Shown here one piece after another: positions 1,374 through 18,714 of a stretch of 21,808 nucleotides of DNA. The position numbers and the translations under genes were made by a program. Position 1 is the first letter of the stretch. The number at the start of each line of letters is the position of its first letter. The notes under the pieces are model-generated. The model did no database searches. It was not told the origin of the DNA and saw nothing but the letters and a program-made list of their open reading frames with translations. The DNA comes from a virus. Where the stretch lies: positions 1 through 21,808 of IMG/VR virus record IMGVR_UViG_3300023444_000011; one strand, 5' to 3'.

Positions 1374-2263
1374 CAAGCACCTTCCTTCTTGGCATCCTTC
1401 TTCGCGTCATGAGACGCGACCGTACCGCGCAGCTCGGATAGTGAGATGTGCTTCGATTTTGATATCTGAACGGAGAACAAGCTGTCGATGTTTGCTGTCG
1501 ATGGGTCCTTGTTCTTCTCCAGTTCGCGCATGTCGTTCTTGGACGCGGTCCAGGCCTTGAGGCACGCGTCGTACCACTTCAGAGCTCCTGCTGATTCGGG
1601 ATGGGGGGACGCCATTGCTCGCTTGAACTGACGGTATGCCGAGGTGAGCAGGTCGTTGATGACGACTTGGTGGTCGAGGTTTATCGGGATGTCGGCTGCA
1701 TCTCTCACGTCGTCGAGAGTGTCCGCCGAGATTCCCGTTCCGATCAGGTGGCGTTCCTCTTCCGCTAGTTGACCGAGTAGGACCTGCCAGTCTTCCGGTG
1801 ATGGGAGACTGACGTCCCAAAAGACTCTCCTGTAGAGCGACAGCGCAGTTGGTGTGGCCGTGATGTCGCACTTGTCTTGCAAGGTAGAGCAAATCTCGTC
1901 GTCGTCGGATTCTGCAAGGAGCAGCATTCCGCACAGAGACCGTGCGTATGCGTGCACGAAGATGCGGAACGCACACCGCAGCTCGATGCTTTCGATTCCT
2001 CCGAATTCCGGCTGGAACTCCCACAGCACGCGGAATCCTTCCGTGTGCGCCCACTCCAGGATTCCGTCACGAGCTCCGAGTTCGTCGTTCTTGGAGTCGA
2101 TGTAGGTCACCAGCGCATACGGAGCGGAACGGCGGATCGATCCTCGCGCACGAGCGATCCACAGGTCTCCGACGCGAGGGAGACCGTAACGCTCAAGCTT
2201 GGCGTTTACGTCTGCGCGGCGCGAGACGAGAAATCGAAGGAATCGCTCGTACGGGTATTTCAC
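1373..2263 (-). CDS. Uncharacterised 296-aa protein upstream of terL; small terminase candidate by position
   Basis: I do not recognise this protein. The start is a GTG at 2263, six bases after the stop of the preceding gene, with no strong Shine-Dalgarno sequence, and the stop overlaps the terL ATG by one base. The N-terminal third is basic and mixed alpha/beta in character. The middle is acidic and leucine-rich (around residues 115-195, with EEER and SADTLDDVRDA). The C-terminus is hydrophilic and lysine-rich (ending KKDAKKEGA), probably disordered. Small terminase subunits usually sit directly upstream of terL and are often 150-300 residues, so TerS is a reasonable positional guess, but I see no clear helix-turn-helix. 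It could equally be a virion or packaging accessory protein. Confidence 0.75.
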   Translation of the reverse strand: MKYPYERFLRFLVSRRADVNAKLERYGLPRVGDLWIARARGSIRRSAPYALVTYIDSKNDELGARDGILEWAHTEGFRVLWEFQPEFGGIESIELRCAFRIFVHAYARSLCGMLLLAESDDDEICSTLQDKCDITATPTALSLYRRVFWDVSLPSPEDWQVLLGQLAEEERHLIGTGISADTLDDVRDAADIPINLDHQVVINDLLTSAYRQFKRAMASPHPESAGALKWYDACLKAWTASKNDMRELEKNKDPSTANIDSLFSVQISKSKHISLSELRGTVASHDAKKDAKKEGA

Positions 2264-2269
2264 GCAGGT

Positions 2270-4429
2270 TCATTGCGTGAACCCAGCGGGTTCAACGCCT
2301 GTTGGGCGCCCGATGAACTTCATGATGGAGAACGGAGCCGCAGTTTTGTCTTGGTGTTCACTGAGGAGCTTGACGCGTGCGACGCCCTTGAGCACCCGTT
2401 GGATGTTCTGGATTGCTGAACGCGTAGCTTCCTCGGGAATGTCGGAAGCTCCAAGCCGCGCGGCGAGCAGCAGCTTGGAGAGCATGTGTACGACATCCCA
2501 CAGCATCGGAGCCGCGGAGGCGAACCGCTTGATGTTCTCCTCGTTGACGAATCCAAGGCTCAAGACGCTGTCGACCGTATCCGCATCGTCGAGGTTGGCG
2601 GCGATCTTGACCAGGTCGGCCATCGCCGGCTTGACCTCCGAGACGATCGCGGACAGGCGAGCATCCGATGCAGATTTGATGGCTCCAGCGGGCGGAGGCT
2701 GCCGAAGATGGTGGATCTCGAGCTGGATGCGGTGCTGTGCCTTGTCGAGGACCTCCGCGGTCTTCTCGTGGTCGAGCCCCCACGAACGAAGCAGGAACTC
2801 GGCTTCATGCTTCGGGAGACTATGGAAGTCGAAGTCGCTCGCGTACTTCGAGATGTCGCCACCGCGAAGCACGTACCGACCGTTGGACATCGCGACCTTG
2901 ATCGGGTTCGTGTCGAGGTGCTCGAGCGCGATGCGCTTGAAGTCGTCGGGACCTTCGGAGACCGCGCACAGTCGCGGCATGCGGATGAAGTTCATCCGCG
3001 CCGAGATGATGTAGTTGTCGTGCGGACCCATGAGCGGACCGAGCTCGGGGCGTTTGCTCTCGGAGATCCGCACGATGCCGTTCACGTTCGGCGACAAGAT
3101 GAGGTTTGCGCGGTTCCCCTTGTAATCGACGATGCCGATGCTCTTGATGTCCTTGAAGACGGTCACAGACGTGACTTGGAACGGGCTCGTAGCGAAAATT
3201 CGCTTCCCGTCGCGGTAGACGAACGTTCCGATCTTCCCGGTGTCGGGGCGGTCAGCCTCGAGGAACGTGTCGTCATCATCCTCGAGGTGAATGCCGGCGA
3301 TGCGCGTCTGCATGGACGCGAGCACCTTGCTGAGGAAGAGCTTGATGGGAAGTGGTTTCCCGTCGAAGTCGACGACGTTGGGGATGACCCAACCCTTCGC
3401 GAGGACGCCGTCCGCGTCGCGTACCCCGTACCTGCCAAACTTGTCGATGGTGGTCACCACGCGGTCGTCTTGCAGCGGGTCGAAGACCCACGGGTTCTTG
3501 TGCGGACCGAGGTTGGCGCCATAGCTTCCGGATCCGTCTACTCCGCTGCCGGACGGGCCGTCGACGTCAAGGCCGTAGACGGGCTTCGGCGCCTCGATGG
3601 TGTAGTGACCGACTCGATCGATGTGCGTGAGGGGGTCGTCCTCGAACTCGTTGAGACATGCGGACCGCGTGTTGAGGAACTCCTTGAGCCCCTGTCGGTC
3701 CGTCGAGATGATGACCGGATCGAAAACCTGGTCGTTGGCCGAGTACAGGCGGTAGTTGTTGGGACCGTCCTTCTTGACCGTGAAGACCGTGGCGGCGCGC
3801 GCCTTGTTGAGGTCGTCCTGCTGGTCCTCTTTGGGCTTGTCCGGTGCAGCAAGCTTCTCGAGCACATGGAACGTTCCACGCTTGTGGAATCCGGCGAGGA
3901 CGGACGGATTGCTCAGGACGGCCGTCTTGAGCAACTTGACATCCTCGAGACCACGAGTCCCCTCGATGAGCTTCGAGATGGGAGCAGAGTAGGAGTACTT
4001 CCCACCGAGCGGTGGGTTGCGGGCATCTGCGAAGACGTCGTCCGTCATGTTGGGCGGCGGCTTCCTGGACGCGAGGCCCACGCCGAGGCTGGTCTGGTAG
4101 AAGGCCTTCGAGACGGTGTCGTCGTTGAGGGGGTAGAGCTTCCCCTCGAGGAAGAACAGGTCGATCGGAGCCAGGTGCCAAGCCTTGACGATGATCGGGA
4201 TTCCGATCTGTTTGCCTCCGCTTGGGTCTCGAGCGATCGCGGTGCCGAGGGCGTACCCCTTCTCCTCATCGACCTTTTGGAAGACCGTGGTGGTTTCGAG
4301 GTTGAGTCCCTTGGGGAGGTTCTCCGCCACGATGGCGGAGATCTCCTGCTGCCACTCGCGTACGTTGTCCGACAGCTTCTTGTACTGGACGCGGCGGAAT
4401 TGCGGGTCTTCGGAGAAAAGGTTGTCCAT
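2270..4429 (-). CDS. Large uncharacterised protein (719 aa), probable virion structural component
   Basis: I chose the start MDNLFSEDP at 4429 because AGGAG lies 5 nt upstream (4435-4439), right after the stop of the previous gene. An in-frame extension to 4633 would add 68 arginine/proline-rich residues that only mirror the other frame of the 4438-4881 gene. The protein is soluble, with no signal peptide or membrane segment. Residues about 1-300 are mixed alpha/beta, a glycine/serine-rich patch follows (DGPSGSGVDGSGSYG), then a beta-rich middle and a helical C-terminal quarter (about residues 560-700). Sitting between a spike-like gene and the terminase, it is most likely a baseplate, tail or head structural protein. 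I cannot name a family. Confidence 0.82.
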   Translation of the reverse strand: MDNLFSEDPQFRRVQYKKLSDNVREWQQEISAIVAENLPKGLNLETTTVFQKVDEEKGYALGTAIARDPSGGKQIGIPIIVKAWHLAPIDLFFLEGKLYPLNDDTVSKAFYQTSLGVGLASRKPPPNMTDDVFADARNPPLGGKYSYSAPISKLIEGTRGLEDVKLLKTAVLSNPSVLAGFHKRGTFHVLEKLAAPDKPKEDQQDDLNKARAATVFTVKKDGPNNYRLYSANDQVFDPVIISTDRQGLKEFLNTRSACLNEFEDDPLTHIDRVGHYTIEAPKPVYGLDVDGPSGSGVDGSGSYGANLGPHKNPWVFDPLQDDRVVTTIDKFGRYGVRDADGVLAKGWVIPNVVDFDGKPLPIKLFLSKVLASMQTRIAGIHLEDDDDTFLEADRPDTGKIGTFVYRDGKRIFATSPFQVTSVTVFKDIKSIGIVDYKGNRANLILSPNVNGIVRISESKRPELGPLMGPHDNYIISARMNFIRMPRLCAVSEGPDDFKRIALEHLDTNPIKVAMSNGRYVLRGGDISKYASDFDFHSLPKHEAEFLLRSWGLDHEKTAEVLDKAQHRIQLEIHHLRQPPPAGAIKSASDARLSAIVSEVKPAMADLVKIAANLDDADTVDSVLSLGFVNEENIKRFASAAPMLWDVVHMLSKLLLAARLGASDIPEEATRSAIQNIQRVLKGVARVKLLSEHQDKTAAPFSIMKFIGRPTGVEPAGFTQ

Positions 4430-4434
4430 GGATG

Positions 4435-4439
4435 CTCCT
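4435..4439 (-). promoter_or_regulatory. Ribosome binding site fixing the start of the 719-aa gene
   Basis: AGGAG on the minus strand, 5 nt upstream of the ATG at 4429 and directly after the TAG of the preceding gene. It decides against the longer in-frame start at 4633. Confidence 0.75.
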
Positions 4440-4881
4440 ACAATAGCGGAACGACCGCTCCTGGCGGAACGGTGACCTTCACTGAGCCGATGGTGAACGC
4501 GGAGATCACCTGCGCAAGGGCATTGGCTTGTTGCTGGGGGGTCGCAGACGGTGGTTGCGGGCTCGATACGCTTCCGACGGGGATGACGGCCGTCACCGTA
4601 CCTGCTTGGGCTGGGACTGCAAGTCCGAGCCAAAAGGTCTGAAGCGCCTGAATGAACAAAGCTGGTCCTGCGCCGGCGAGGTTGGGATTGAACGCTGATT
4701 CGAGCGCAGATGCAAAGGGTTGCTCTTTGGGTGTCGCTGGAACTCCGCCTGCAATTGCGTACTTGGTGTACGCGCTAGCCCATGTTCGCGCGGCATCGCG
4801 CGTTGTTTGAGGTGCTGTCTTCGACACGAACATGGGAAGTAGCCCCGCAGCAAGGACTGGCGTGGCAACCGATACGGGCAT
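4438..4881 (-). CDS. Small virion-type protein (147 aa), baseplate/tail neighbour
   Basis: It starts at ATG 4881, six bases after the stop of the spike-like gene, and has no obvious strong ribosome binding site, so it is probably coupled to that gene. Composition is rich in Ala, Val, Pro and Gln with no signal peptide. The middle has aromatic repeats typical of small tail-assembly proteins (RTWASAYTKYA around 32-42, then FIQALQTFWLGL around 76-87). A proline/glutamine-rich linker (around 106-117) follows, then a hydrophobic tail ending VPPGAVVPLL. I do not recognise a named family. Position between a spike-like gene and a large structural gene suggests a tail or baseplate part. Confidence is in the gene, not in the role. 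Confidence 0.78.
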   Translation of the reverse strand: MPVSVATPVLAAGLLPMFVSKTAPQTTRDAARTWASAYTKYAIAGGVPATPKEQPFASALESAFNPNLAGAGPALFIQALQTFWLGLAVPAQAGTVTAVIPVGSVSSPQPPSATPQQQANALAQVISAFTIGSVKVTVPPGAVVPLL

Positions 4882-4887
4882 GTTTGG

Positions 4888-5877
4888 CTACACGAGTGTG
4901 GCTGGGTCCTTCGACAAGAATAGGAAAGTCGAAAGAATTTTACCAGATAGCTCGTTCTTCAGCGCTTCGAGGTCCGCAATCGTATTCGGCAACGGAGGAG
5001 TCGACGGTCCCCATGCGGTGTTTACCTTGAGGTTTTTGATGATGTCGATGAGCTTGTCGAGGGCCTCGACGAGCTGATTTCCGAGCACCGCGGGTTCATC
5101 GGCGGACTCACCTCCCCACTGGTATTTCGGCCCTTCGCCCACCCATGTTCCGTCGCTCTTGTAGGTCTCTCTCGTCACGATGGTCGCCGTTTGGTTTCCT
5201 CCGGCGACCACAACAGACGCCAGTGTGAGACGTCGGCGTGCATTGTTCTCGAGGTTGCCGTGAGCAACTGTGAATCGGTCGTAGGAATTCCCGAGCTGGT
5301 GGAGGAAGTGTTCCTCGTGCTTGGTCTCGGGAGCCGTCTGTCCTGGGGTCTGACGTCCGCGTGACGACAGGTATCCGTCTGCGCTTTGTTTGAAGTTCGC
5401 CGATCGGATGGTCGCTTGGTTGTTGGTGGGGTTGAGCAGAACGGAGGTACCCGCGCCGCCTTCCATGATGACTGCGCCGCCGCGCTTGAGGATGATCGTG
5501 GCGCCGCCGGCGGTGCGGATGGTCTTGTCACCTGCTGCGATGTTGTCGTCGGGATTTCCAACGACGGGCGGGTCATCGGCAGACTCGTCAAACACCGGCA
5601 TGGGGTGGAACCCGCAGATGAACACCTGTCCGCCATCGGATGTGACCACGGCGACGCATGGGGAGCCTGCACGCGGCTTGGTGATTTCTCCGGTCCCCTG
5701 CGCGTCCACATCGGGGGATAGAACGTGTGCATCGCTGACGGCGAAACCATCAGTGGACTGAAAGAAGTAGGTCCCTGGGTGGTTGGGGTTTTCCTCGCCG
5801 ATGATGCCGTACAAGATGCGGCCGCGGGCTGCATTTCCAAGTGAAATCCACGGTCTGCTCACACCGCCATGGTACAT
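4888..5877 (-). CDS. Baseplate spike/hub-like protein (gp5 or gpV type), 329 aa
   Basis: I start it at ATG 5877 ([10 protein letters not shown]). A longer start at 5952 would run back into the divergent SSB leader. Around residues 60-95 there is an OB-fold-like stretch in which the protein is matched to a setpoint-type sentence ([12 protein letters not shown], then FICGFHP), as in gp5/gpV spike hubs. Around 117-150 it becomes short beta repeats ([20 protein letters not shown]), as in spike beta-helices. The C-terminal part has a long helix ([15 protein letters not shown]) followed by [10 protein letters not shown] and a final helix ending in LS...FLFLSKD, an arrangement I associate with contractile-tail spike proteins. 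The role would be the membrane-puncturing tip at the baseplate centre, implying a myovirus. It is the first gene of unit III. Family assignment is by pattern, not by search. Confidence 0.6.
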
Positions 5878-5945: not shown

Positions 5946-6341
5946 ATGGCACAAGGTATCAACAAGGTAATTCTCATCGGCAACCTCGGAAACGACCCTG
6001 AGCTCAAGTCGATTCCGAGTGGGAATTCTGTCTGCGAGTTCAGTCTCGCGACCAACGAGAGTTGGACGGACAAGAGCGGACAGAAGCAGGATCGCACCGA
6101 GTGGCACCGGATCGTCGTGTGGGGGAAGACCGGAGAGAACTGCGCGAAGTACCTCTCCAAGGGACGGCAGTGCTACGTGGAGGGACGCCTCCGCACGAGG
6201 TCGTGGGAGGACAAGGAAGGCAACAAGAGGTACACCACAGAGATCGTGGCCTCTACGGTCCAGTTCCTCGGAGGTGGACAGGGCGGTTCCAGCTCCGGTG
6301 GCGGAGAAAGGAACGCATCGCAAGACGACATCCCGTTCTAG
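5946..6341 (+). CDS. ssb: Single-stranded DNA-binding protein (SSB)
   Basis: This protein coats single-stranded DNA during replication, recombination and repair. The 131 residues have the complete bacterial OB fold: VNKVIL-type strand 1 ([15 protein letters not shown] at 5-19), LATNESW at 34-40, the [11 protein letters not shown] core at 51-61, and [21 protein letters not shown] from 82. The linker is short and glycine/serine-rich (109-121), much shorter than E. coli SSB's. The tip is DDIPF, essentially the E. coli tip that docks host partners such as PriA, RecO, exonuclease I and the DNA polymerase III chi subunit. It is the first gene of a plus-strand island opposed to late genes on both sides, which fits early or middle expression. 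Confidence 0.97.
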
Positions 6342-6824: not shown

Positions 6825-6852
6825 GAGTCGGGGAGTAATCCCCGGCTCTTTT
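6825..6852 (+). terminator. Rho-independent terminator of the SSB island
   Basis: An inverted repeat GAGTCGGGGA ... TCCCCGGCTC (10-bp stem with one G-U pair, loop GTAA) is followed by TTTT at 6849-6852. It lies 8 nt after the stop at 6817, oriented for the plus strand, and overlaps the last codon of the convergent metalloprotease-like gene. It should stop the SSB operon from running antisense into unit II. The minus-strand reading has no U-tract. Confidence 0.85.
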
Positions 6853-7960
6853 AGGCTATCACGGTTGCACGAAACCCTCGCTGAGGGTTGTGCAATGACT
6901 TGATCATGTCGCGATAGAACGCTCGCTTCGATGGCGGCTTTGCAGTGGCGCGGTGACGTGCAACGAGTCCAATGCGGTCGGTCGGAGGGATCGTTTTCGG
7001 CTTCGGCTTCGATGCGTCCATCTTCCATGCAGAAGATGCACTTGCTCGGAGCGCGCCGGACATCGCAACTCTCTTTGGAGGGGGGATTTTTTTTCGAGGA
7101 GAAGGCGGAACGGTGATTTTTTTGGGTGGTCGGAGTGATTTCGCCCCTGTCTTCTCGAGCTTTGATACTGAGTCATCCTTGGCTTTGTGAGGGTGGCGTT
7201 TCCCAAGATGCTTGGCGAGAGCGGTTGCAAGAATGGGGAACGCAGCACCGACAAGGTAGCTTCCAAAAGCGGGGCCAAGGACCTTTGCGATCTCCCACAT
7301 GCGAATCCCAGACCTGCTTGCTCCTCCGAGAGCCTTGATCGAAGCGCGTGCTTCCTCGGCCAATTGAGGGGCCAGCGTAGCAGCGGTAATGACGGGGGCG
7401 TTTTCGTAGATCTGCTTCCGAATCCCGTCTTCCTTGTCTCCAGGCCCCATCAGCGCAGCGCCGATAAGAAGGGTTCGGACAAGCGTTCCAGCACCACTGC
7501 CGAGTCCAGCTCCGGTCGCGAGCGTATGTAGACCACGGCGGAGCTTGACGCTCTTCAAGATAGGGCTGCCGTGTCCGAGTTCATGAAGGGCGATAGGAAC
7601 GGATGCTCGCCCTAGTCCGATGTGTTCCGGGATCGAGCGGACCTTTCGGTTGAAGATGATCTTCGGATCGAAGTAGTAGGAGTTACCGGTCCTATTCCCC
7701 AAAAGCGGGGTGAGAATCGGTGCAGTAACTGAGTGTTTCTTCGCAAACCTCGAGAGGATGTCGAGGTCCTTTTTTCGAAGTTCGCGGGTTTTCTCGATCG
7801 GGAATCCTCGGGTACGCGTTTTGATGAGGGGACCCATACCAAACGTGTCCGGCGCTTTCGCTCGAAGAGCCGCTACTGCATCGGCAATCCCGCCAGCGCC
7901 AACCAAAGCTGCGGCTGGAAGAACGTTTGGATGAACCAGTTTTTTGTCGGATTCGGCCAT
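6851..7960 (-). CDS. Membrane protein with zincin motif HELGH, candidate metalloprotease (369 aa)
   Basis: The HExxH zinc motif is at 126-130 in the context PIALHELGHGSP, as in gluzincin-type membrane proteases. A possible third ligand is E202 or E203 in PQLAEEARAS, about 75 residues downstream. Hydrophobic stretches lie at about 12-31, 145-171, 186-200 and 226-250, so it is probably a multi-pass membrane protein. Residues 255-350 are basic, proline/lysine-rich and probably disordered. The start codon shares one base with the RNA polymerase stop (TGATG), with GGAG upstream, so the two are translationally coupled. A_AAA_AAA at 7087-7094 is a potential slippage site. The motif is clear; protease activity and substrate are inference. 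A virion membrane-interacting protein that has kept only the fold is the main alternative. Confidence 0.72.
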   Translation of the reverse strand: MAESDKKLVHPNVLPAAALVGAGGIADAVAALRAKAPDTFGMGPLIKTRTRGFPIEKTRELRKKDLDILSRFAKKHSVTAPILTPLLGNRTGNSYYFDPKIIFNRKVRSIPEHIGLGRASVPIALHELGHGSPILKSVKLRRGLHTLATGAGLGSGAGTLVRTLLIGAALMGPGDKEDGIRKQIYENAPVITAATLAPQLAEEARASIKALGGASRSGIRMWEIAKVLGPAFGSYLVGAAFPILATALAKHLGKRHPHKAKDDSVSKLEKTGAKSLRPPKKITVPPSPRKKIPPPKRVAMSGALRASASSAWKMDASKPKPKTIPPTDRIGLVARHRATAKPPSKRAFYRDMIKSLHNPQRGFRATVIA

Positions 7961-10900
7961 CAGTAGACTCCGCTGGTCTTCGATTTGCTGTCAGGCTTGG
8001 TTCCGCCGAGGACATTGGTGCCTCCCTCGGCGCCGAACTCAGCTCCGTATACGAACGCTGGGACTGGAGCGTATCCGTGCAGGTCGGACTCCTCCAGCTT
8101 CGTGGCTCCGCCAACCAATGCGCTCGCCAAATCTCGATACCCCATCTGGCTCATCCAGTCAGACCGAAGCAGCGGGATACGGGTGATCCCGTGGAGCTCC
8201 GGTTTGTGTCGGATCGGCTTCGGACCGACCTCGACGGATGACTTCCCAGCCTTCTGGAGGATCTCCTTGACACGCTCGTCGATGATATCGCCCGGCTTGA
8301 GTCCAGGAACAGGCTCTCGAAGCACATGACCCTCAGACGATGACACAGGGACCTTCCCGATGGTCTTGCGGTTGAAGTCCTGTACAACGGTCCACGGGGC
8401 GAGGTCGCCAGGGAGAAACGAGCTGCTCCCTGGATCGAGAACGCGCGTTGTATTGCCCACGGACCTGAGCACAGTCTCGATGGCACGGCGCTTCAACGGT
8501 ACTCCTTGCCCGTGATAGGCACGCTGGATCTCGTCTGCGACGAGGTTCTGTGCGCGTCCGAGGTCGCCCGTGAGCTCAACGAGCTCCTTCGGGTGCACAA
8601 TGCCGCGTGACAGGATTTCACCCTTCTTGACAGAGGCGCCTTTTCGAACACGGGATGAATCCCACAAGTCGTTCTCGATGAAGACCGGCTTCTTTGCGTC
8701 ACCGATGTAGACGTTCTTTCCGCCTCCGCCAGGGGCATCTTCGATGCGCGTGACCTTCCCGGATCGCGGTGCGAGGGACGCCTTCCCGCGCTCGATCTTG
8801 TTGAGGCTGAACATCTTGTCGATCGCCTCGTACCCAGTGATCGCACCACGGGTCCCCGACAGTCCCCCCTGGTGGAATGTGCGCATGGTCATCTGCGTGA
8901 GTGGCTCAGACAGCGACTGTCCGTCTACGGCACCCACGTTGTCGCCAATCGCCGGGAGATGTCCGTGCTCATTGAGCCCGTAGCACTTCGCGCACGTCCC
9001 CTTCGGCATCTTGCAGTACAAAGGTGACCGAACAACGATCGTCTTCACCTTGAGGCGCTTGAGCTCCGTGAGCAAACGAGGGGTGATCTCATCACCTGCA
9101 CGCGCGAGCGTTTTCCCATTGGCGCGAACGTCCTTCGCAAGAAACCGGTCGTTGACATCACGGCTCGTCACCGGCATCTCAAGTCCATCGGTCGTCATGC
9201 AGTCGTCATCGGAGATCACATTGGTGATGGCGCTCGCCATGATGTTCTTGTTGAACGCCCCTGGCTCGGATGTCTGCAGCTGCTTGTCTACGGCAGATGC
9301 GCGTGCCCCGTACAGCGTTGACCAATAGTCGGAAAAGGGGAGCCCCTCGGCGAATGAATGGGTGATGGGAATGGGGCTCTTTTCTCCTCGGTGGTTGTCC
9401 ACCATGAAGGGCGCGGAGATAACCTGCTTGAGCTGGTTCATGTTGCCGCGGGCCCCAGAACGAACCATCAGGTGGAAGTTGTTCTCCTGCTTGTCGAGCG
9501 ACGTCGCCACGACCTGGTCGAGTTCTTTGTTGGCACGCTCGACCAGGCTCGTAGCTTTCTGCTTGCCCTTGGGAGTCCTGGTCGGCAAACGGGACACCTC
9601 CGACAAGACCTTCTTGAAGATCTTGTCCTTCCCTGGGATTTGCGGAATCAGGTCGTCAACACCTACCGTAAACCCAACGCGGTAGGCGTGGTCGTCCCCG
9701 AGCGCCTTGAGCTTGTCGATGACCTTTCCGTGGTCGTTTGGGATCTCCTTCGCGACATCCCGCAGAAGGTCATCGAGCGTGCTCTTCGTGAAGACCGTCG
9801 ATGCGTACTTCTTGCGGGCTTTTGGAGGAAGGAGCTTCCCGATCGTCTTTCTGCCTTCCGGGGTTTTCGACAGGAGGTAGAGCCCGAGCAAGGCCTCGTT
9901 TTGAGGCTTCAGCATGAGGGCGCCAGTTCCCGGGTTGTACAGGTTCTTGGACGGAAGCATCTTCCCTGCTTCCCGCACAGCATCGTCCAAGATTGGAACG
10001 TGCACCGTCATGGTGTCGCCGTCGAAGTCTGCGTTGAAGCCCTTGACGACGAGGGGAGGGATCTTGATCGCCTTTCCGTCGGTGATCTGAGGCTTGAACG
10101 CCATGATGGAGAACTTGTGCAATGAGGGAGCGCGATTGAGCATGACGGGGCGACCGCTCATCTCCTCCTCGAGCATCTTGCGAGCCAGGTCAGTACGTTT
10201 CTCGACGGCCTCGAGCGCAGCAACCGGAGACATTCCGAATCGAGTCACGAGGCGCCGACGTACGAACGGCCCGTACAGCGTCCATGCCATCCCCTCAGGG
10301 AGAGCCACCTCGTCGACGCCGAGCTTGGGCTCTGGGATGATGGTCCCTCGCCCAACGAGGTTCTGACGGCGCTTGACGAGTTTGTCCTGGAAGAAGCCGG
10401 TCTTGATAGGCTTCCCTTTGAGCTGCTCGACGATCCCCTTCGGGCGGCGCTTGGCCGGATAGTAGGCGATCGGAGACGTGAACCCGGCAAGTGCCTTGAC
10501 GGACTTGTACAGGTCGCCACGCCACTCAGCCTTGATGGCGTCGGTGATGAAGGGGACGTCCTTTTGCCACTTGAGCTCGTTGTTGATGAGCCCGACGTCG
10601 CGGTAGAGCGTGTTGAGCCCCGGCGTCGAAAGCGACCCGTCCTCGAGCTCGGCGATGGGACGGAAGGCCGGCGGGATCACCGGGATCTTGGTCTGGAGGT
10701 AGGCCTCCTCCGGCCGCACCTTGAGCTTCTTGAGGGCCGCAAGGTACTTGAGACGCGTGTTGGCGGTATTGAGGGCCGTGGGCGTCTTGGCGCTCTTGGC
10801 CTTCTCTGTCCAGGCGGCGATTTCTTCGTCGATGTTGACGCGCTTGAGAAGCGTCTTGATCCCTTCTCCCCCGGTAACACCATTCTCGCCGAGCTCGCCG

Positions 10901-13900
10901 GTCTTCGGGTCTACGAACAACTCTCCACGAACGATCGAGTCGAACTGTGACGCGTTGAGGTTGGTCAGCGTTCGGATCGCCTTTTCGAACACAGGGTTCG
11001 GAATCGGCTCTGCGAGCTGGATGTGGCCCCACCGTTCTCCCATGCGACCGCCGAGAACCATCGAGTCCATGAGGCCGCCCGGTTCCTCCTTCAGGTCCTT
11101 GCCGCGAGTGAACACCGGTTTGGTGATCTCACCCGAGCTGAGGTTCTCGACCTCTTTGTCGGTCATCGGTCCAAGGACGAGCTTCGACCCTCGGCGTGTG
11201 ATGTTCGCCCCCGCCCCCTTCATGTAGGCCTCGAACTTTCGGTACGCGAAGGTCGGCTCCGGAGGCGGAAGCGATTGGATTCCGACCTTCGTTCCACCGC
11301 CACGAAGCCAGTACCAGAACTTGTCGTTCTGCTCGGCTTTGTAGGTGGCCATCTCGCGAAGGTTTGCTCGAGCTCCATGGGCCAACATGGAGTACATGGT
11401 GATGAGGTCGAGGGACTTCGCGCCCTCTTCTCCGCGCCCCGCAGGTTGACGGTTCAGATCGTACTTCCCCTCCTCGCGTGCGGAGTACTGCGAGGTGACC
11501 TGCTTGGTCAGTTTGAGCAGGTACTGGGGACCCACGAGCACGTTGCCCAGAGGCTCCTTACTGTGAGGGTCGTATAGCGGCTCGACGTCGGACACCTTGT
11601 TCTTGGCGAGCAGGCTCTTGACCGTTCGTGCGTGGTCTTCGCCGCTGAAGTTGTCGACCTTGTACGGTCGTTCTTTGTCCGCGATTTTCGCGGCGGCTGT
11701 TTCCAGAATCTGCGACGGGTTGATACGACTTACCACGCCGGCCGGGTTGAGGATCACTTCGACGGGCTCACCATCCTTGGTGTGAGGAGCTTCCCCGTCG
11801 GGGATGATCTTCGTGACGATTCCCTTGCCTCCGTATCGATTCGTGAGCTTGTCACCGATACGCGCGGACTCTTCGGTCTTGATGTAGACCTTGATGGCTC
11901 CGCCCGTCTTGACGACGTCGACGACCTTGCCAGGAAAGTCGCTTTCCCATGTTTCCTCGAACCCGCGGATGGGAGAGAAGATGCCCGTCATCCGCTTCCC
12001 GGCGCGATAGTCCGGGTCGTACTTCTGCTCTCGAACTCCGACCCATAGCGGGTCGCCCTTTTCGACGACCGTCCCTTTCTTGACGACGCCGTCGTCGTCG
12101 AGAGCAACCAGCTGTTCTGGTTTCAGGCCTGTGGGCTTGTACACATGGTACTTCTTCTTGGAGATCTCGGTGTTGCGTCCGATTGACATCGCTCGCTCGT
12201 GAAGATGCTCGCTGGTGAGCTTCTTCGCGGCCGACTCGGTGATAACGATGCCATCCTCGAAGTTGTATCCCTTCCACGGAAGGTAGGCGACACGGAGGTT
12301 TGTTCCCAACGCCAGCGTGCCGTCCCGCGTAAAATTGGAGTCGGCAAGCACGTCATTGGCGCGCACTTTGTCCCCCTCTTTGACCAGCACGTTTGCGTGC
12401 AGGAATGACTTGTTGTTGAGGGGGAGGTTCTTGTACAGGTCGTACTCGACGTCTCCGTCGGCGCTCTTCACGATGATCTTCGACGGCGTCACGGACTTGA
12501 CGACTCCGTCGACCATCGAGCGGATCGAGAACCCGAGACCGATGGCTTCCTCGACCGTGGTCTTTCCGATCTTCGCCTGAACAAGCGGAGCTTCCCTCTC
12601 TTTGAGCGGGATCGCTTGCTCGAGCATCTTGGTCGCCATCTGTCCGCGTACGCCTTGCGTTGAGGCAAGAAACGGGATCATGTTCGAGGCGACGGAGAAC
12701 GCTTGTCGCGGGTTGGAGAGCACAACGTCGACCTCGGACGGATCGACGAGCTGGTGCTCCCCGTTGACGATGGCCTTGACCTTTTTCCCGATTGGTTTTC
12801 GGTCGCGGTACTGGTCCGGGAAGGCGACGACGAGGTTGCGTGCCTCCATCGGCGTGATGCGACGAACCTTCTTCTTCTTGACGTCGTATACCGTCGTCGT
12901 CAGCTGGTCTCCGTCCTTCCCTGCGCCGATGGGAAGGTTCATCACCAATCCGATCTTGTTGGAGTCTGGCGTATGGATCGGGTCGATGAATCCGAGCTGC
13001 GACGGATGGACCGCGCGCTCCGATGCGCCGACGCGCTGAGGGTCGGAAATGCCCCCTTCGCCCAACACCGTCACCTTCGCCATCCCGTTGATCATGTTGA
13101 TGGGGTTGGTTTGGCCCGGGTTGTTCGACAGCGTCGACTGCGTGAAGAACGACTTCACCAGATTGGCAAACTGGTTCGGAGACAGCACATCACGCACGGA
13201 CTTCGGTCGATGCAAAGGGTTTCGCAATCGAATGTTGAGTCTGCGTCGGACGTCTTCGAGTGGTGGGGTGAGGGTCCCGTTCGGTTTGACGAACCTCTCA
13301 CGCATGACGTCTGCAAGGCTGAGGACCTTCTTGAACTCGAGCGCGTGACGCTCGTCGGGACGCCGCTTCCCGGTGCTCGCTAGCAGGAGATGTTTCGATG
13401 CATCGAGGAGAGCGAGAGGCGTGACCTTCTTGTGCTCCGATCCAACCGTGGCCTTCGTGACCTCCGGCATGAGCTCCGAGCCGTCGAGCTGCTCCTTGAT
13501 GGCCTCAAGCGCTTCTTGTGCGGTCTCGTAGTCTCCTGGACGCAGAGCATTGGCGACTCGTTTGATGGCGGCCTCGGACGCTTTCGCGCTGATCGCCTTG
13601 TTGGCCGCGAGAACCTTTTCGCCCCAGACCTTGGCGAGCATTGCATCGGAGACCCCGAGGCGCGAGAGAAGTGGATACAACTCTGCGCGTACCGAGCCAG
13701 ATCCACCGCCCGCATCACGAACGACGTAGAACCGAGGAGCTCCAGTTTTCTTGTCGGTCGTGACCTCGATGTTGAACGAGCGCCCCGGTGTGAGGATCTC
13801 AGCCTTGAACTCGTGGTTGAGTTTCTCGGTAACGTAGATCCCAGGTTTTCGTCGGAGCTGGTTGTTGATCTGGTAGTGCTTCCCATCAACGATGAAGCTC

Positions 13901-14205
13901 CCCATGTTGGTGCTCTTGGGAAGCAAGGCCAGCCGCATCTTGGATGCGGTTGAGATCACCTTCCCCGTCTTGTCATCGATGAGCTCAATATCGGCGTAGA
14001 CGGGCACCCCCCAGGTTTTGTCCTTGCGGGCAGCTTCGTGTTGCCCTTTCCAGTCCGTGACGGACTTGTCGTCTTGCACCCAGACCTTCTTGGCGTGCAG
14101 TCGAAGACCCGTCCGAGGAGACTTGGTGTCGATCGCCTTCTTGAAGGCGGTCGCGATGTCCTTCTTCACTCGGTCGAATTGGTCTTGGTAGTCGAATGTC
14201 TCCAT
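7960..14205 (-). CDS. Single-chain DNA-directed RNA polymerase, fused beta and beta' (2081 aa)
   Basis: This is a multisubunit-type RNA polymerase with both large subunits in one chain. Beta half (about 1-1000): IPFLAS at 510-515, YNFEDG at 647-652, catalytic-lysine motif GDKLTNRYGGKG at 784-795 (K786, K794), NPAGVVSRINPSQILE around 820-835, and the hybrid-binding QPAGRGEEG region at 920-928. Beta' half (about 1005-2081): SGEITKP and GHIQLAEP, the clamp region (LPP-like IPPAFRP), active-site NADFDGD at 1391-1397, bridge helix around 1625-1656, zinc cysteines C1669, C1731, C1738, C1741, and trigger loop MTMRTFHQGG at 1772-1781 with H1778. There is no long linker at the junction. The total is about 670 residues shorter than E. 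coli beta plus beta'. The beta' N-terminal zinc domain and beta flap tip appear missing. No alpha, omega or sigma is encoded nearby. It is the first gene of unit II. Confidence 0.97.
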   Translation of the reverse strand: METFDYQDQFDRVKKDIATAFKKAIDTKSPRTGLRLHAKKVWVQDDKSVTDWKGQHEAARKDKTWGVPVYADIELIDDKTGKVISTASKMRLALLPKSTNMGSFIVDGKHYQINNQLRRKPGIYVTEKLNHEFKAEILTPGRSFNIEVTTDKKTGAPRFYVVRDAGGGSGSVRAELYPLLSRLGVSDAMLAKVWGEKVLAANKAISAKASEAAIKRVANALRPGDYETAQEALEAIKEQLDGSELMPEVTKATVGSEHKKVTPLALLDASKHLLLASTGKRRPDERHALEFKKVLSLADVMRERFVKPNGTLTPPLEDVRRRLNIRLRNPLHRPKSVRDVLSPNQFANLVKSFFTQSTLSNNPGQTNPINMINGMAKVTVLGEGGISDPQRVGASERAVHPSQLGFIDPIHTPDSNKIGLVMNLPIGAGKDGDQLTTTVYDVKKKKVRRITPMEARNLVVAFPDQYRDRKPIGKKVKAIVNGEHQLVDPSEVDVVLSNPRQAFSVASNMIPFLASTQGVRGQMATKMLEQAIPLKEREAPLVQAKIGKTTVEEAIGLGFSIRSMVDGVVKSVTPSKIIVKSADGDVEYDLYKNLPLNNKSFLHANVLVKEGDKVRANDVLADSNFTRDGTLALGTNLRVAYLPWKGYNFEDGIVITESAAKKLTSEHLHERAMSIGRNTEISKKKYHVYKPTGLKPEQLVALDDDGVVKKGTVVEKGDPLWVGVREQKYDPDYRAGKRMTGIFSPIRGFEETWESDFPGKVVDVVKTGGAIKVYIKTEESARIGDKLTNRYGGKGIVTKIIPDGEAPHTKDGEPVEVILNPAGVVSRINPSQILETAAAKIADKERPYKVDNFSGEDHARTVKSLLAKNKVSDVEPLYDPHSKEPLGNVLVGPQYLLKLTKQVTSQYSAREEGKYDLNRQPAGRGEEGAKSLDLITMYSMLAHGARANLREMATYKAEQNDKFWYWLRGGGTKVGIQSLPPPEPTFAYRKFEAYMKGAGANITRRGSKLVLGPMTDKEVENLSSGEITKPVFTRGKDLKEEPGGLMDSMVLGGRMGERWGHIQLAEPIPNPVFEKAIRTLTNLNASQFDSIVRGELFVDPKTGELGENGVTGGEGIKTLLKRVNIDEEIAAWTEKAKSAKTPTALNTANTRLKYLAALKKLKVRPEEAYLQTKIPVIPPAFRPIAELEDGSLSTPGLNTLYRDVGLINNELKWQKDVPFITDAIKAEWRGDLYKSVKALAGFTSPIAYYPAKRRPKGIVEQLKGKPIKTGFFQDKLVKRRQNLVGRGTIIPEPKLGVDEVALPEGMAWTLYGPFVRRRLVTRFGMSPVAALEAVEKRTDLARKMLEEEMSGRPVMLNRAPSLHKFSIMAFKPQITDGKAIKIPPLVVKGFNADFDGDTMTVHVPILDDAVREAGKMLPSKNLYNPGTGALMLKPQNEALLGLYLLSKTPEGRKTIGKLLPPKARKKYASTVFTKSTLDDLLRDVAKEIPNDHGKVIDKLKALGDDHAYRVGFTVGVDDLIPQIPGKDKIFKKVLSEVSRLPTRTPKGKQKATSLVERANKELDQVVATSLDKQENNFHLMVRSGARGNMNQLKQVISAPFMVDNHRGEKSPIPITHSFAEGLPFSDYWSTLYGARASAVDKQLQTSEPGAFNKNIMASAITNVISDDDCMTTDGLEMPVTSRDVNDRFLAKDVRANGKTLARAGDEITPRLLTELKRLKVKTIVVRSPLYCKMPKGTCAKCYGLNEHGHLPAIGDNVGAVDGQSLSEPLTQMTMRTFHQGGLSGTRGAITGYEAIDKMFSLNKIERGKASLAPRSGKVTRIEDAPGGGGKNVYIGDAKKPVFIENDLWDSSRVRKGASVKKGEILSRGIVHPKELVELTGDLGRAQNLVADEIQRAYHGQGVPLKRRAIETVLRSVGNTTRVLDPGSSSFLPGDLAPWTVVQDFNRKTIGKVPVSSSEGHVLREPVPGLKPGDIIDERVKEILQKAGKSSVEVGPKPIRHKPELHGITRIPLLRSDWMSQMGYRDLASALVGGATKLEESDLHGYAPVPAFVYGAEFGAEGGTNVLGGTKPDSKSKTSGVY

Positions 14206-14363
14206 GGGTCACTCATGTATTCGCGGCATAAGCCGAGTGAGGGCAGGTTAGCAGCCCTTGGAAGGAGTCTATCACCTGAAGAAACGCCCCAGGAAGTACC
14301 AACCAGGCTTCGTCGTCGAAGCTATTGCTACCCTCCGTAACCTATCCAACAAGGAATCATTCC
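14206..14363. promoter_or_regulatory. Divergent promoter region between RNA polymerase and the small-membrane-protein island
   Basis: This is the longest gene-free stretch (158 bp). On the minus strand GCTTATGCC (14225-14233) ends 19 nt before the polymerase ATG, with TGAGTG four bases from the start, matching the layout before unit III. Here the element is part of the inverted repeat CGGC-ATAA-GCCG. On the plus strand GTAACCTA (14337-14344) lies 21 nt before the ATG at 14364, followed by AAGGAA (14351-14356) as ribosome binding site. No host-type -35/-10 pair stands out by eye. Confidence 0.5.
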
Positions 14364-14630
14364 ATGATCTTCATCATCAATCTCAAGCGTCGTCGTCTCG
14401 CATCGTCCGAAAACTCGGCCGAAATGGTTCTTCGCGATAAGCCCAAGGGAACGGGCATCTTCGGGAAGGTCTTCGGGTTCATCATCTCCGCGTGCATCAT
14501 CGGCACCATGGAGATCGCTCTGGGATGGGTGGCCAACAAGGTGCGAACGGTCGTGTGGGACATGATCGAAGGGGAGAAGAAGGAGATCACAGTCGGAGGC
14601 ACGGATACGCCGGTAGAAGTCGCAGCATGA
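14364..14630 (+). CDS. Small single-pass membrane protein (88 aa), unknown function
   Basis: The start MIFIINLKRRR at 14364 is chosen because AAGGAA lies 7 nt upstream. Residues 1-32 are hydrophilic and basic, one hydrophobic segment spans about 33-57 (IFGKVFGFIISACIIGTMEIALGWV), and the short C-terminal tail is acidic (EGEKKEITVGGTD). Positive charges before the segment suggest an N-in topology. No family is recognised. It leads a two-gene plus-strand island next to the RNA polymerase promoter region. Small membrane proteins in such positions can be superinfection-exclusion, antiholin or host-takeover factors, but nothing here decides between them. Confidence 0.68.
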   Translation: MIFIINLKRRRLASSENSAEMVLRDKPKGTGIFGKVFGFIISACIIGTMEIALGWVANKVRTVVWDMIEGEKKEITVGGTDTPVEVAA

Positions 14631-14637
14631 TCTTCTT

Positions 14638-14680
14638 CCTGCTGAGAAGGATGCGTGCGCGCGCATCCTCATCCAGCAGG
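14638..14680 (+). repeat. Long imperfect hairpin between the two small membrane-protein genes
   Basis: The outer stem CCTGCTG (14638-14644) pairs with CAGCAGG (14674-14680). The inner stem AGGATGCGT (14648-14656) pairs with GCGCATCCT (14661-14669) with one G-U pair. The 3' arm overlaps the CAGGGAG Shine-Dalgarno of the gene starting at 14690. There is no U-tract after it, so it is not a classic terminator. It may control translation or stabilise the upstream mRNA. Confidence 0.6.
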
Positions 14681-14689
14681 GAGCCCCAC

Positions 14690-15043
14690 ATGATCGAAGT
14701 TCCGGCGCATGGGTTCGTTGTTGGCAGTGACGGACTCGTAAAGGATCGCCGGACGGGACCGATCCGGATGTGGTTCCGCAAGTTCATCGGAGCTTGCGCG
14801 ATGGCGTCGGCTATCGCCGCAGGGCTCATGGTGTACATGCACTTCACCAAGAAGTGGAAGCAGGCTGGATTCCCTGTCATTCCCATCAGCGCGTTGGCGC
14901 AGATTGAACAGGCGAACACCAGCCAGCCCCAGGCTCCCACTTCAGGGGCTGTCCCGCTGACACAAGGGACGAGCGGTATCTACCAGGGAGGACGGCAGGA
15001 GAAGAACACAAGTTTTCTGGACAACCTCGACTTCGAGGGCTAG
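14690..15043 (+). CDS. Small membrane-anchored protein (117 aa), unknown function
   Basis: I choose ATG 14690 (MIEVPAHGFV), preceded by CAGGGAG 6 nt upstream. An in-frame ATG at 14627, overlapping the previous stop as ATGA, would add 21 residues encoded by the hairpin region and cannot be excluded. Residues 1-31 are polar and basic, one hydrophobic segment spans about 32-53, and the remainder is Gln/Thr/Ser/Pro-rich and probably disordered, ending in FLDNLDFEG. No family is recognised. It ends on a CTAG that also supplies the stop of the convergent gene. Confidence 0.65.
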   Translation: MIEVPAHGFVVGSDGLVKDRRTGPIRMWFRKFIGACAMASAIAAGLMVYMHFTKKWKQAGFPVIPISALAQIEQANTSQPQAPTSGAVPLTQGTSGIYQGGRQEKNTSFLDNLDFEG

Positions 15044-16359: not shown

Positions 16360-16651
16360 CTTCCATGTCTCCCTTGGTGCGTTTGGGCTTTCGTTCCCAG
16401 TAGTGTACGACCAAAAAAATGTCTTCTGTGGTGGTGACGATACCGTCGTCGCCGCCTTCACGAATCACTGTTTTTCTGGAGTACTCGCGGATCTGTTCGA
16501 TCTTGATCCCGCTTGCGGCGTTGTTCGCACGAGTACGCAGATCTGCGTACTCATCCATGGACTCCTGCTCAAACAGATTGAACGTCTTGCAGTGGAAGGT
16601 TCCTAGGTGAGCCGACCCACCGCCGATTTTGACTTCGCTCACTTTGGCCAT
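16313..16651 (-). CDS. Small soluble uncharacterised protein (112 aa) after the portal gene
   Basis: The start at 16651 overlaps the portal stop by one base (TGATG), and its 3' end overlaps the holin-like gene by 47 bp, so it is part of a tightly coupled series. The sequence is polar with no membrane segment: a short beta-like N-terminus (VSEVKIGGG), a helical middle (SMDEYADLRTRANNAASGIKIEQIREYSRK), a beta-like stretch (TEDIFLVVHYWERK), and a lysine/glutamate-rich end. I do not recognise a family. Confidence 0.75.
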   Translation of the reverse strand: MAKVSEVKIGGGSAHLGTFHCKTFNLFEQESMDEYADLRTRANNAASGIKIEQIREYSRKTVIREGGDDGIVTTTEDIFLVVHYWERKPKRTKGDMEDEVTNLALKRVSADR

Positions 16652-18714
16652 CAGATTGTCCCGTCCTTACGCCGAGGGGGAGCCTTTTGTGGAAGCGGCT
16701 TCATTCTGTCCGCTGCCTGGGACGCGGTCTCCCCGGGTCTCATCTGCGACAAGATTTGCTGAACCAGCCGCGCCATGTTTGGCATGCGACGCTGCAGATC
16801 GGAAAGAACAGCATTCTGCTGTGCCGGAGGCATCTTGGAGATGCTGTTTGCCCAGGTCTTTGCGATCCGCGATGCGTCGAGCTCGACAACCTTCCCGCCG
16901 CCGGCGGAGGTCCCCGCCTGCCCCGCGGTTTGCGCCTGCTGCTGCGCAGCTGCGCCCTGTGCGGCTTCTGCGGCCATCTGCTGGTCCGTAGACAGGTCTC
17001 CGCCCGATGGAGCTCCAGCGGGGGGTTGCGGCCCACCTGCGGCCTGTGGCGGACCTGCTTGAGCCTGCGGTTGCTCTGCCTGTGGGCCAGCTTGTGGTGG
17101 CGTCTGCTCTTGTGGTGGGCCAGCGGCGCCGGAAACCTGTCCTTGCGCTTGCTCTTCCTGCGACGGCTGACCGCCAGATGCCTGCCCAGAAGCCTCCTGG
17201 AAGGCCTCCTGCGCCCGTGCCTGGTACTTGGCCTGGACAATCTGGGCTTCTCCCTGAGCTTCTGTCTGGGCCTTCATCGTAAGCGCCTGAATGTGGTTAC
17301 GAGCCTCGGTCTCCTTTTCAATCATCTGCTGCTCGTCGTCGTAGTCGAACCCGAGCTCGGTGAGCAGCGTGTGGTCGGAAATCTTGTTGGCGGCGTTGAG
17401 CTGGATGACGATCTGCTTGCGCTGGATGTCATCCGCCATCTTGAACTCGGTGAACCCGATGCCAACATCGGGCATCCCGAGGTACAACCGGATTCGATTC
17501 TTGACCCAGTCGACGAACCGAAGAAGAAGTCGGCGGTACAGCAAGAAGTGGTTCTCGAGGGTCCGCAGAGAGACGCTCGAGCCGGACCACGAGAGGCCTC
17601 CGAACACGAGCTCCAGCGGAACCCCCATGCCGCCGGTGATCTCCTTGTTGGTGACCTCGATTTCAGGGCCAAGAAGGAGCGCACGTCCGTCGCCGCCGAG
17701 GCGCTCGAAGCCGAGCGGAACCGACACCACGGAGATGTAGTTGGGGTCGATGCGCCACTTGCGGATCTCGTTTTGGACGGTCCCTTGCCAGCTGGACAGG
17801 TTGACGTGCTGGTAGGGGTCTTGCTGTGCGTTCGCCTGTGGGAAGACGAACTCGAGCGGCATGATTCGCTGGAGCGCGATGGCCTCCTGCGCTCGGCGCA
17901 AGACGTACAGGTAGAACATCCGCCCCATCGAGTGAATGATGAGGGGTTTGCCCCACCCCATATCCTGCTCGGCGAGCGTGGGCCTCTTGAAGTGGAACAG
18001 GTTCTGCTCGCTGAGCGCAATCGAGCGCTTCTTCTTGAGGGCCTCGAAGAAGATCGCGGGGATGTCCACCAAGATCTCACGGCTTCCGAGCTGGATGGCC
18101 TTGCGAATCTTGTTGGGGATTTTGTACCGGTACTTGGAACGACCGGTGATGGGGTTGTAGTGAAGGTCGATGTTGCGCGGGTCCCACCGAACGAAGTTGA
18201 TCCCGGTGCGGTCACGTACGGGTACGTCGACGATTTTCGCAGGACCTCTCGTTCCGCACTTGGTGCACTCGATGGAGAACTCGAAGTTCCGGAACTCGTA
18301 TTTGAACGACGGGTCGGCGAGCTTGAAGGTCGACTTGCAGCTCGAGCACTCGATCCAGCGAGTGAACGGAAGGTTCAGCGAAACGAAGCAGTTGCCGTAG
18401 GTAAAGAAGTCGAGCCCGACCTCTATGAGGAATGGCTTGAGGTTCAGCGTGTCCTCGAGGAGGTCGCGCCACGCTTCTCGGACGTGCTTCTCCTTGGCGT
18501 TGTACACGAAGTTGGTCACCGGATACTCGGCGAGCTTCGTCACAACGGACCCGATCATTGGGTCCTTGTAGAAGAAGTACTGACACCACCGGAAGAGCTC
18601 CTTCACGGTGGGCGGCATGTAGGTCTGAGCGATGTCGAAGAACGGTGATGGGTACACCGTCCCGCGACGTCGGTCGCGACCCCATAGCCCGAGAAGTTGG
18701 TCGTCGGCGGCCAT
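16651..18714 (-). CDS. Portal protein with zinc-ribbon insertion and Q/P/A-rich tail (687 aa)
   Basis: The dodecameric portal forms the DNA channel at one capsid vertex and docks the terminase. The N-terminal region (FRWCQYFFYKDPMIGSVVTKLAEYPV at 41-66), the YGNCFVSL strand near 106-113, the PLEFVFPQ region near 286-293, and the GGMGVPLELVFGG segment (361-373) followed by a long helix resemble myovirus and jumbo-phage portals. Two CxxC pairs (C123/C126 and C150/C153) suggest a zinc ribbon inserted in the wing region. Residues about 480-605 are Gln/Pro/Ala/Gly-rich low complexity. The C-terminal 80 residues are helical and basic. A weak ribosome binding site precedes ATG 18714. Assignment is by pattern and by position in a structural operon; the terminase is on a separate unit 15 kb away. 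Confidence 0.83.
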   Translation of the reverse strand: MAADDQLLGLWGRDRRRGTVYPSPFFDIAQTYMPPTVKELFRWCQYFFYKDPMIGSVVTKLAEYPVTNFVYNAKEKHVREAWRDLLEDTLNLKPFLIEVGLDFFTYGNCFVSLNLPFTRWIECSSCKSTFKLADPSFKYEFRNFEFSIECTKCGTRGPAKIVDVPVRDRTGINFVRWDPRNIDLHYNPITGRSKYRYKIPNKIRKAIQLGSREILVDIPAIFFEALKKKRSIALSEQNLFHFKRPTLAEQDMGWGKPLIIHSMGRMFYLYVLRRAQEAIALQRIMPLEFVFPQANAQQDPYQHVNLSSWQGTVQNEIRKWRIDPNYISVVSVPLGFERLGGDGRALLLGPEIEVTNKEITGGMGVPLELVFGGLSWSGSSVSLRTLENHFLLYRRLLLRFVDWVKNRIRLYLGMPDVGIGFTEFKMADDIQRKQIVIQLNAANKISDHTLLTELGFDYDDEQQMIEKETEARNHIQALTMKAQTEAQGEAQIVQAKYQARAQEAFQEASGQASGGQPSQEEQAQGQVSGAAGPPQEQTPPQAGPQAEQPQAQAGPPQAAGGPQPPAGAPSGGDLSTDQQMAAEAAQGAAAQQQAQTAGQAGTSAGGGKVVELDASRIAKTWANSISKMPPAQQNAVLSDLQRRMPNMARLVQQILSQMRPGETASQAADRMKPLPQKAPPRRKDGTI

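Follow-up and report, generated by a model that had tools for sequence, protein, structure and literature searches.

The IMG/VR virus record IMGVR_UViG_3300023444_000011, whose 21,808 bases were analysed at full length and are referred to here as the window, carries a gene on its minus strand in which both catalytic subunits of a bacterial-type RNA polymerase (RNAP) are encoded as one polypeptide. The frame opens with ATG and specifies 2081 amino acids, a beta half followed by a beta' half. Judged from the sequence, its length and its conservation in about 100 relatives rule out a chance origin. The evidence assembled below makes it probable that this is a catalytically complete, alpha-free RNAP which travels in the virus particle together with its own sigma-like factor and reads promoters on the early strand of the phage genome.

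Architecture of the single-chain polymerase

Pfam profiles recognise the halves in the order beta, then beta' (Rpb2_6, 3.7e-50, and Rpb2_3, 1e-10, in the first; Rpb1_1, 6e-11, Rpb1_2, 3.6e-25, Rpb1_4, 9.7e-7, and Rpb1_5, 4.4e-20, in the second), and a phmmer search of the PDB retrieves bacterial RpoC at 1e-107. Alignment to RpoB and RpoC from E. coli and other bacteria places the junction at about residue 1004. There is no linker; the C-terminus of beta at this point reads GAGANITRRGSK, compared with SLGINIELEDE in E. coli. The equivalents of E. coli beta residues K1065, K1073, R678, R1106, E813 and D814 are all kept in a residue-level alignment, as are the beta' motif NADFDGD (D1393, D1395 and D1397), R425 of beta', the trigger-loop motif MRTFH, the four cysteines of the second beta' zinc site, the arginines contacting the nucleoside triphosphate, the clamp helices and the flap. 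None of the lineage inserts of the E. coli subunits appears in the aligned window chain, and all 13 aligned phage members show a clean deletion of the N-terminal zinc domain of beta'. The enzyme is thus short and yet complete in its catalytic centre, because the inserts and the zinc domain have gone while the active-site elements have been kept. An earlier note, made from the sequence alone, had described one 2081-residue chain with both halves and intact core motifs, alignable motif by motif to bacterial beta and beta'; frame, Pfam and residue alignment bear this out. The structure prediction which it proposed agrees: an AlphaFold2 model of residues 890-2081, junction included, has a pLDDT of 86.7 and a pTM of 0.83, and its best matches in the PDB are bacterial RpoC chains (TM 0.77, E 1e-63).

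In the rifampicin pocket, S531T is found in 13 of 13 aligned phage members, and the window enzyme also has H526G, D516G and R143Y. Resistance to rifampicin is therefore predicted. A C-terminal tail, HGYxPIPxFAYGAEFG...GxY (residues ~2040-2081; 7963-8088, minus strand), is conserved in the phage clade and missing from bacteria; it may act as a signal for packaging or for docking.

Distribution and phylogeny

The polymerase does not stand alone. It belongs to a common phage lineage, with relatives on at least 108 IMG/VR contigs and in four cultured phages, Salmonella phage Arash and the Vibrio phages D69, D148 and D181, whose chain is divided after the region of the active site. Identity to about 100 relatives is 34-65% across the whole chain. 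Among the contigs listed, 94 encode a single chain, in some cases with inserts the size of inteins, four have one frame with in-frame TGA, four have split genes and six reach the contig end; the longest contigs among the matches listed extend to 208 kb. A single RNAP locus is present in each of 30 fused-clade records. The best 80 matches from a scan of bacterial genomes were ordinary rpoBC genes only, with no sign of prophages.

Trees were calculated for the beta and beta' halves separately with FastTree and for both halves with IQ-TREE; they comprised the fused clade, phages with two-gene polymerases and, as the only cellular group, bacteria. The topology is the same throughout, and the two halves have a common history. 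The fused clade, Arash and D69 included, is set apart with ultrafast bootstrap (UFBoot) support of 100, and bacteria are monophyletic, again at UFBoot 100. The two-gene phage polymerases (L042, L043, Carin-5, YerA41) lie on long branches between the fused clade and bacteria. Some records filed as phages resemble host chromosomal contigs with rpoBC (for example OR846602.1, OR844998.1 and OR849902.1); Staphylococcus, Listeria, Enterococcus and other matches of this kind from the phage collection served as bacterial references only.

A putative sigma-like partner

The earlier note's statement that alpha, omega and sigma are lacking holds for the window, and its proposal to look further afield was followed in the records of relatives. 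There too, alpha and omega are absent above cut-off (PF01193 in 0/25, PF01000 in 0/26, PF01192 in 0/26). Alpha-like matches in G007 and G015 (E ~1e-3) contain stops and were dismissed as noise. The system is not sigma-less, however. Weak matches to sigma70 regions in four records (G003, G005, G028, G038) and in Arash gp10 turned out to represent one protein family. Since PF04542 alone missed it in most genomes, a profile built from the weak matches was used, and this detects the family in 28 of 33 records with a fused RNAP and in none of three two-gene phages; a 29th matching record (G034 A4, a canonical sigma) was left out of the count. Within the window's subclade the protein is found in G003, G005 and G006.

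The family matches sigma region 3 at up to 5e-10 and region 2 weakly, while region 4 is seen solely through a fold match. An AlphaFold2 model of the protein from G005, a close relative of the window in which the gene spans 62847-63683, has a pLDDT of 82 and matches sigma chains across its length, with sigma-A and sigma-S at the top (E 1e-6, probability 1.00). When 50,697 phage records were searched, the only clear matches were Arash, D69, D148 and D181 (E ~1e-9), followed by weak similarity to cyanophage sigmas. The gene lies on the same strand as the RNAP gene in 28 of 28 cases (the orientation of L008 included), and in Arash gp10 sits among the structural genes gp4-gp17.

A promoter-like element on the early strand

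Enrichment of k-mers in the upstream regions of Arash early genes yielded TGGTATAAGTAAnnTGTAA. GGTATAA occurs in 13 of 58 of these regions (1.4 expected), and 24 of the 25 motif copies in the first 100 kb of Arash are on the early strand. The same procedure, applied independently to two genomes of the window's subclade, gave GGCATAAG. Copies of this in the window are found at 5898 and 14225 on the plus strand, each 12 bases past CAC, so that CAC-N12-GGCATAAG occurs twice against 0.00 expected (0.23 for the core alone). Two early-strand genes were recognised in the window, and each is preceded by one of these sites: the gene for single-strand DNA-binding protein (SSB), and a small conserved one that diverges from the RNAP gene.

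In the 13 loci of the subclade, some of them near-duplicates, all 39 copies of GGYATAAG are on the strand opposite to the RNAP, largely at orthologous positions; 33 are unique, of which 22 have CAC exactly at -15. The other 97 fused-clade loci contain 135 copies where 58 are expected, with 110 unique sites opposite to the RNAP strand and 12 on it (p ~5e-21). There is no such excess in two-gene phages (7 vs 12 expected) or bacterial loci (78 vs 69 expected). As the upstream part differs in the wider clade, where it is A-rich at -19 to -16, the GGYATAAG core by itself is taken to be the clade-wide part of the putative promoter. Sites are dispersed across the early gene block rather than confined to one end.

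An extended -10 element of host sigma70 (TGnTATAAT) was considered for the Arash motif and rejected, position -7 being mostly G and no TTGACA being evident. Across the wider clade, TATAAT favours neither strand (321 vs 332), whilst GGYATAAG is clearly biased (14 vs 121).

The polymerase in Arash virions

The strongest external support for packaging comes from Arash. Tandem mass spectrometry of its virions, purified on sucrose gradients, detected gp206, the first part of the RNAP, more than any other protein (3516 spectra, 128 peptides, 100% coverage); the second part, gp216, is represented by 1210 spectra and gp10, the sigma-like ortholog, by 24 peptides and 467 spectra, and the other sigma of this phage, gp196, has no entry in the part of the virion table covered (PMC10585845). 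The active sites of the cultured members Arash (L003) and D69 (L004) have diverged, with the trigger-loop motif MRTFH replaced, yet the Arash RNAP is abundant in virions. An SNF2-type helicase, Arash gp217 (L003:25992-27410), is encoded directly after the gene for the C-terminal part of beta' and is likewise present in the virion; it is possibly a RapA-like partner.

Proposed mechanism and alternatives

The chain architecture, the intact active site, the clade, the genes nearby, the co-occurrence of the sigma-like family and the enrichment of the motif with its preference for one strand were computed here; from them and from the Arash virion we infer RNAP activity, packaging in the window's phage, binding of sigma to the RNAP and reading of the motif by the polymerase. 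The RNAP would be made late in infection, from the strand of the structural genes, and packaged with the sigma-like factor encoded elsewhere in the genome. Both would be delivered into the cell along with the phage DNA, where chain and sigma would form a holoenzyme reading GGYATAAG-core promoters on the early strand (CAC-N12-GGCATAAG in the window's subclade), such as that before the SSB gene. The late strand carries the RNAP and sigma genes, along with structural genes, and the early strand the promoter-like element; late synthesis, packaging and first action in the next cell form the simplest reading of this arrangement. The suggestion of the earlier note that the enzyme could be packaged and injected to transcribe early genes is accordingly plausible in the light of the Arash virion homolog and this strand arrangement.

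Several points weigh against this mechanism. The virion data are from Arash only, whose RNAP is split and ~34% identical, with an altered trigger loop (MRTFH to LGTKH) and active site (AADYDGD); the Arash authors propose early transcription but allow for carry-over, the virion having 116 proteins (PMC10585845). The 21.8 kb window fragment contains no sigma gene. The clamp helices have kept their length, and the residues which contact sigma in E. coli are mostly changed in the alignment. A chain of ~230 kDa would need to pass through the tail. Finally, the motif is tied to the polymerase by correlation, and a phage sigma acting on host RNAP could read the motif.

This last point extends to a full alternative, in which the sigma-like protein steers the host RNAP and the single chain uses another factor or other promoters. 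Phage sigma factors such as T4 gp55 do act on host RNAP, the changed clamp-helix contacts would fit, and several fused-clade members have a second, canonical sigma. Against this, the sigma-like family tracks the fused RNAP and shares its strand without exception, whilst the canonical sigmas of G007, G008, G034 and G036 are on the early strand, opposite to the RNAP. Such a division of labour is thus considered unlikely, though it deserves to be taken seriously. Slightly more doubtful is a non-virion enzyme, made late to transcribe the late genes of the same infection and present in Arash particles as carry-over. The position of the RNAP gene among structural genes on the late strand suits this idea, as does the presence of replication enzymes in Arash virions, but the RNAP is the top virion protein there, gp196 has no entry in the part of the table covered, and the clade-wide promoter-like motif belongs to the early rather than the late strand.

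A chiefly mechanical role, in which transcription by the virion RNAP pulls the genome into the cell and gene expression is secondary, appears improbable. Transcription-coupled genome entry has precedent in other phages, the portal gene adjoins that of the RNAP, and the spectral count of the Arash RNAP is very high; promoter-like sites nevertheless occur throughout the early gene block, and direct support for such a role is absent from this analysis. Recent capture of a bacterial rpoBC fusion, for which the identical beta-beta' order and a fused RpoBC in a Woesebacteria genome might be cited, can hardly be entertained, given that both halves fall outside all sampled bacteria and that the N-terminal zinc domain, alpha and omega are missing. 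The Woesebacteria case (candidate phyla radiation; L128:8813-15898), 2362 amino acids in one frame, is an independent bacterial fusion.

In its fullest form, the mechanism proposed here would amount to a virion holoenzyme of two proteins, a dedicated sigma and a one-chain core which has neither alpha nor omega and lacks the zinc domain of beta', giving host-independent, rifampicin-resistant transcription from its own two-part promoter at DNA entry in a major and nearly undescribed lineage of tailed phages. This extended claim seems a little better than evenly balanced.

Comparison with known polymerases

The cultured members are among the closest known systems. Arash (gp206 plus gp216), D69, D148 and D181 share the clade (UFBoot 100), the neighbours portal-RNAP-gp218-gp219 and the sigma ortholog, and Arash also has the motif GGTATAAG and, in the virion, both RNAP and sigma. 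They differ in their split chain (1525 + 606 aa in Arash), their altered active-site and trigger-loop motifs and an identity of only ~31-34%. The two-gene RNAPs of Rhizobium and Cobetia phages, YerA41 and L039-L044 are likewise phage-encoded and bacterial in type, and are the nearest outgroups in the trees; by contrast, their genes are separate, they lie near DNA polymerase genes in the cultured phages, and these phages have a T4-type capsid, no sigma ortholog (0/3 tested) and no GGYATAAG excess. Fusions in Helicobacter and Wolbachia similarly join the C-terminus of beta to the N-terminus of beta', but they follow bacterial phylogeny and their assembly depends on alpha. The phage clade differs in lying outside Bacteria and in having no alpha or omega above cut-off in the relatives' records.

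The virion and non-virion RNAPs of phiKZ-like phages are also double-psi-barrel enzymes of which one form is packaged, although they consist of 4-5 separate polypeptides and are far more divergent (PMC7598289) than this single 2081-aa chain with its sigma-like partner. Single-chain phage RNAPs related to the cellular enzymes are known from crAss-like phages, YonO and P23-45, the last present in virions (PMC10770324). Those of crAss-like phages lack detectable similarity to COG0085/COG0086 and YonO is highly divergent (PMC7481178), whereas the window RNAP matches at 1e-50 and aligns over its full length.

The multi-subunit RNAP-encoding Caudovirales (mReC) of Weinheimer and Aylward 2020 (PMC7481178) resemble the fused clade in several respects, with an RNAP alignable to COG0085/COG0086, a deep branch apart from Bacteria, structural genes nearby and an origin in IMG/VR contigs. 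The fused clade likewise stands apart from bacterial RNAPs (in trees with bacteria only) and has NADxDGD intact. Furthermore, mReC1, mReC3 and the fused-clade locus L171 come from the same metagenome, 3300017989; a query with the single L171 protein matched only L171 and an identical copy, and mReC1 and mReC3 were not identified by it. On the other hand, beta and beta' are treated in that paper as separate subunits, and it makes no mention of such a phage fusion, of a sigma or of virions. Its only capsid family, PF07068, was found in 8 of its 97 contigs (PMC7481178), and here in 0 of 30 fused-clade records as against 12 of 12 two-gene records. The phylogeny which the earlier note called for separates the enzyme from Bacteria and from two-gene phage RNAPs; its clade probably overlaps the known mReC lineage.

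Multisubunit RNAPs of phages are thus already known, as are RNAPs carried in virions and the deep-branching phage RNAPs from metagenomes (mReC, PMC7481178). Within the open-access literature, preprints and most subscription journals lying outside the scope, no paper was found on a fused beta-beta' bacterial-type phage RNAP, and no description of zinc-domain loss in one chain, a co-inherited sigma or the promoter element. If the proposed mechanism is correct, one chain plus sigma would constitute a very small sigma-dependent bacterial-type RNAP, and alpha, omega and the beta' zinc domain would be suggested to be dispensable. Such a virion RNAP, for which there would be a candidate promoter and, in Arash and D69, cultured models, would allow direct tests of whether large phages transcribe their early genes independently of the host. 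The fused clade could also serve as a deep-branching outgroup when the history of cellular RNAP is reconstructed, and the single chain is a possible simple, orthogonal transcription tool.

Gene neighbourhood

Iterated profiles of the window proteins, searched against relatives, reveal a conserved order of portal, RNAP, spike, structural protein and p296 (Table 1), the Arash counterparts of the portal, structural protein and p296 being gp204, gp218 and gp219. Portal and structural genes enclose the RNAP gene on the late strand, a position which supports packaging and agrees with the description of a phage gene in a structural region. Of the flanking genes that had been named, portal and baseplate spike are confirmed; a terminase is not, no window protein having a Pfam or PHROG match to one. 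Among fused-clade records the large terminase subunit that characterises the mReC lineage (TerL, PF03237) is above cut-off in 3/17, with 3 more weak matches.

Table 1. Positions of the polymerase, its elements, promoter-like sites and neighbouring genes in the window
Feature	Position	Strand	Evidence
Single-chain beta-beta' RNAP, 2081 aa	7960..14205	-	Frame, Pfam, phmmer, alignment
Beta-like half, residues ~1-1004	11194..14205	-	Alignment to E. coli RpoB
Beta'-like half, residues ~1005-2081	7963..11193	-	Alignment to E. coli RpoC; AlphaFold2 model
Beta catalytic lysines K786, K794 (E. coli K1065, K1073)	11824..11850	-	Alignment
Deletion point of beta' N-terminal zinc domain (E. coli C70, C72, C85, C88)	11032..11043	-	Alignment
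Beta' clamp helices (sigma-docking element in bacteria)	10483..10614	-	Alignment
NADFDGD active-site motif, residues 1391-1397	10015..10035	-	Alignment
Second zinc site, C1669, C1731, C1738, C1741	8983..9201	-	Alignment
Trigger-loop motif MRTFHQGG, H1778 = E. coli H936	8863..8886	-	Alignment
Promoter-like CAC-N12-GGCATAAG, adjoining RNAP start, upstream, divergent	14210..14232	+	0.00 expected; most relatives in the window's subclade have the orthologous site
Promoter-like CAC-N12-GGCATAAG, ~40 bp upstream of SSB start codon	5883..5905	+	0.00 expected
Portal protein	16651..18714	-	PHROG 1.1e-6; homologs in 90 RNAP loci, among them Arash gp204, a virion protein
Baseplate hub/spike, frame to 5952, likely ATG near 5877	4888..5877	-	Homologs in 79 loci; Phage_base_V in L204 homolog
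Structural protein, Arash gp218 ortholog, start uncertain	2270..4633	-	Homologs in 88 loci; gp218 in virion, 1149 spectra
Conserved neighbour p296, Arash gp219 ortholog	1373..2263	-	Homologs in 80 loci
Protein of 369 aa, next gene after RNAP, restricted to window subclade	6851..7960	-	Homologs in 13 loci
SSB, likely start 5946, early-strand gene within late cluster	5946..6341	+	Pfam SSB 1.4e-42
Small ORF on early strand, conserved in subclade and divergent from RNAP, start uncertain	14492..15043	+	Homologs in 13 loci

Variants of the polymerase gene

In-frame TGA codons interrupt the RNAP at L016:12230, L023:12230 and L198:10481, 11045 and 12857, mostly in columns occupied by Trp in relatives; that at L196:12080 is outside any Trp column. 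TGA seems to be read as Trp in some members of the fused lineage. Large intein-like inserts with homing-endonuclease motifs are present in the RNAPs of L022, L025, L030/L031/L038, L035, L027 and L212. L022 and L035 have theirs at the active-site motif, L030 in the catalytic-lysine region KGIVT and L025 close to the end of beta. In D181 (L002) a homing endonuclease gene at 16707-17324 splits the RNAP gene that D69 has intact. Two further loci, L026 (18369-22559) and L029 (17156-21025), have a split C-terminal beta' gene ~700 aa above the usual length, the extra part in L026 comprising P-loop kinase-like and acylphosphatase-like domains.

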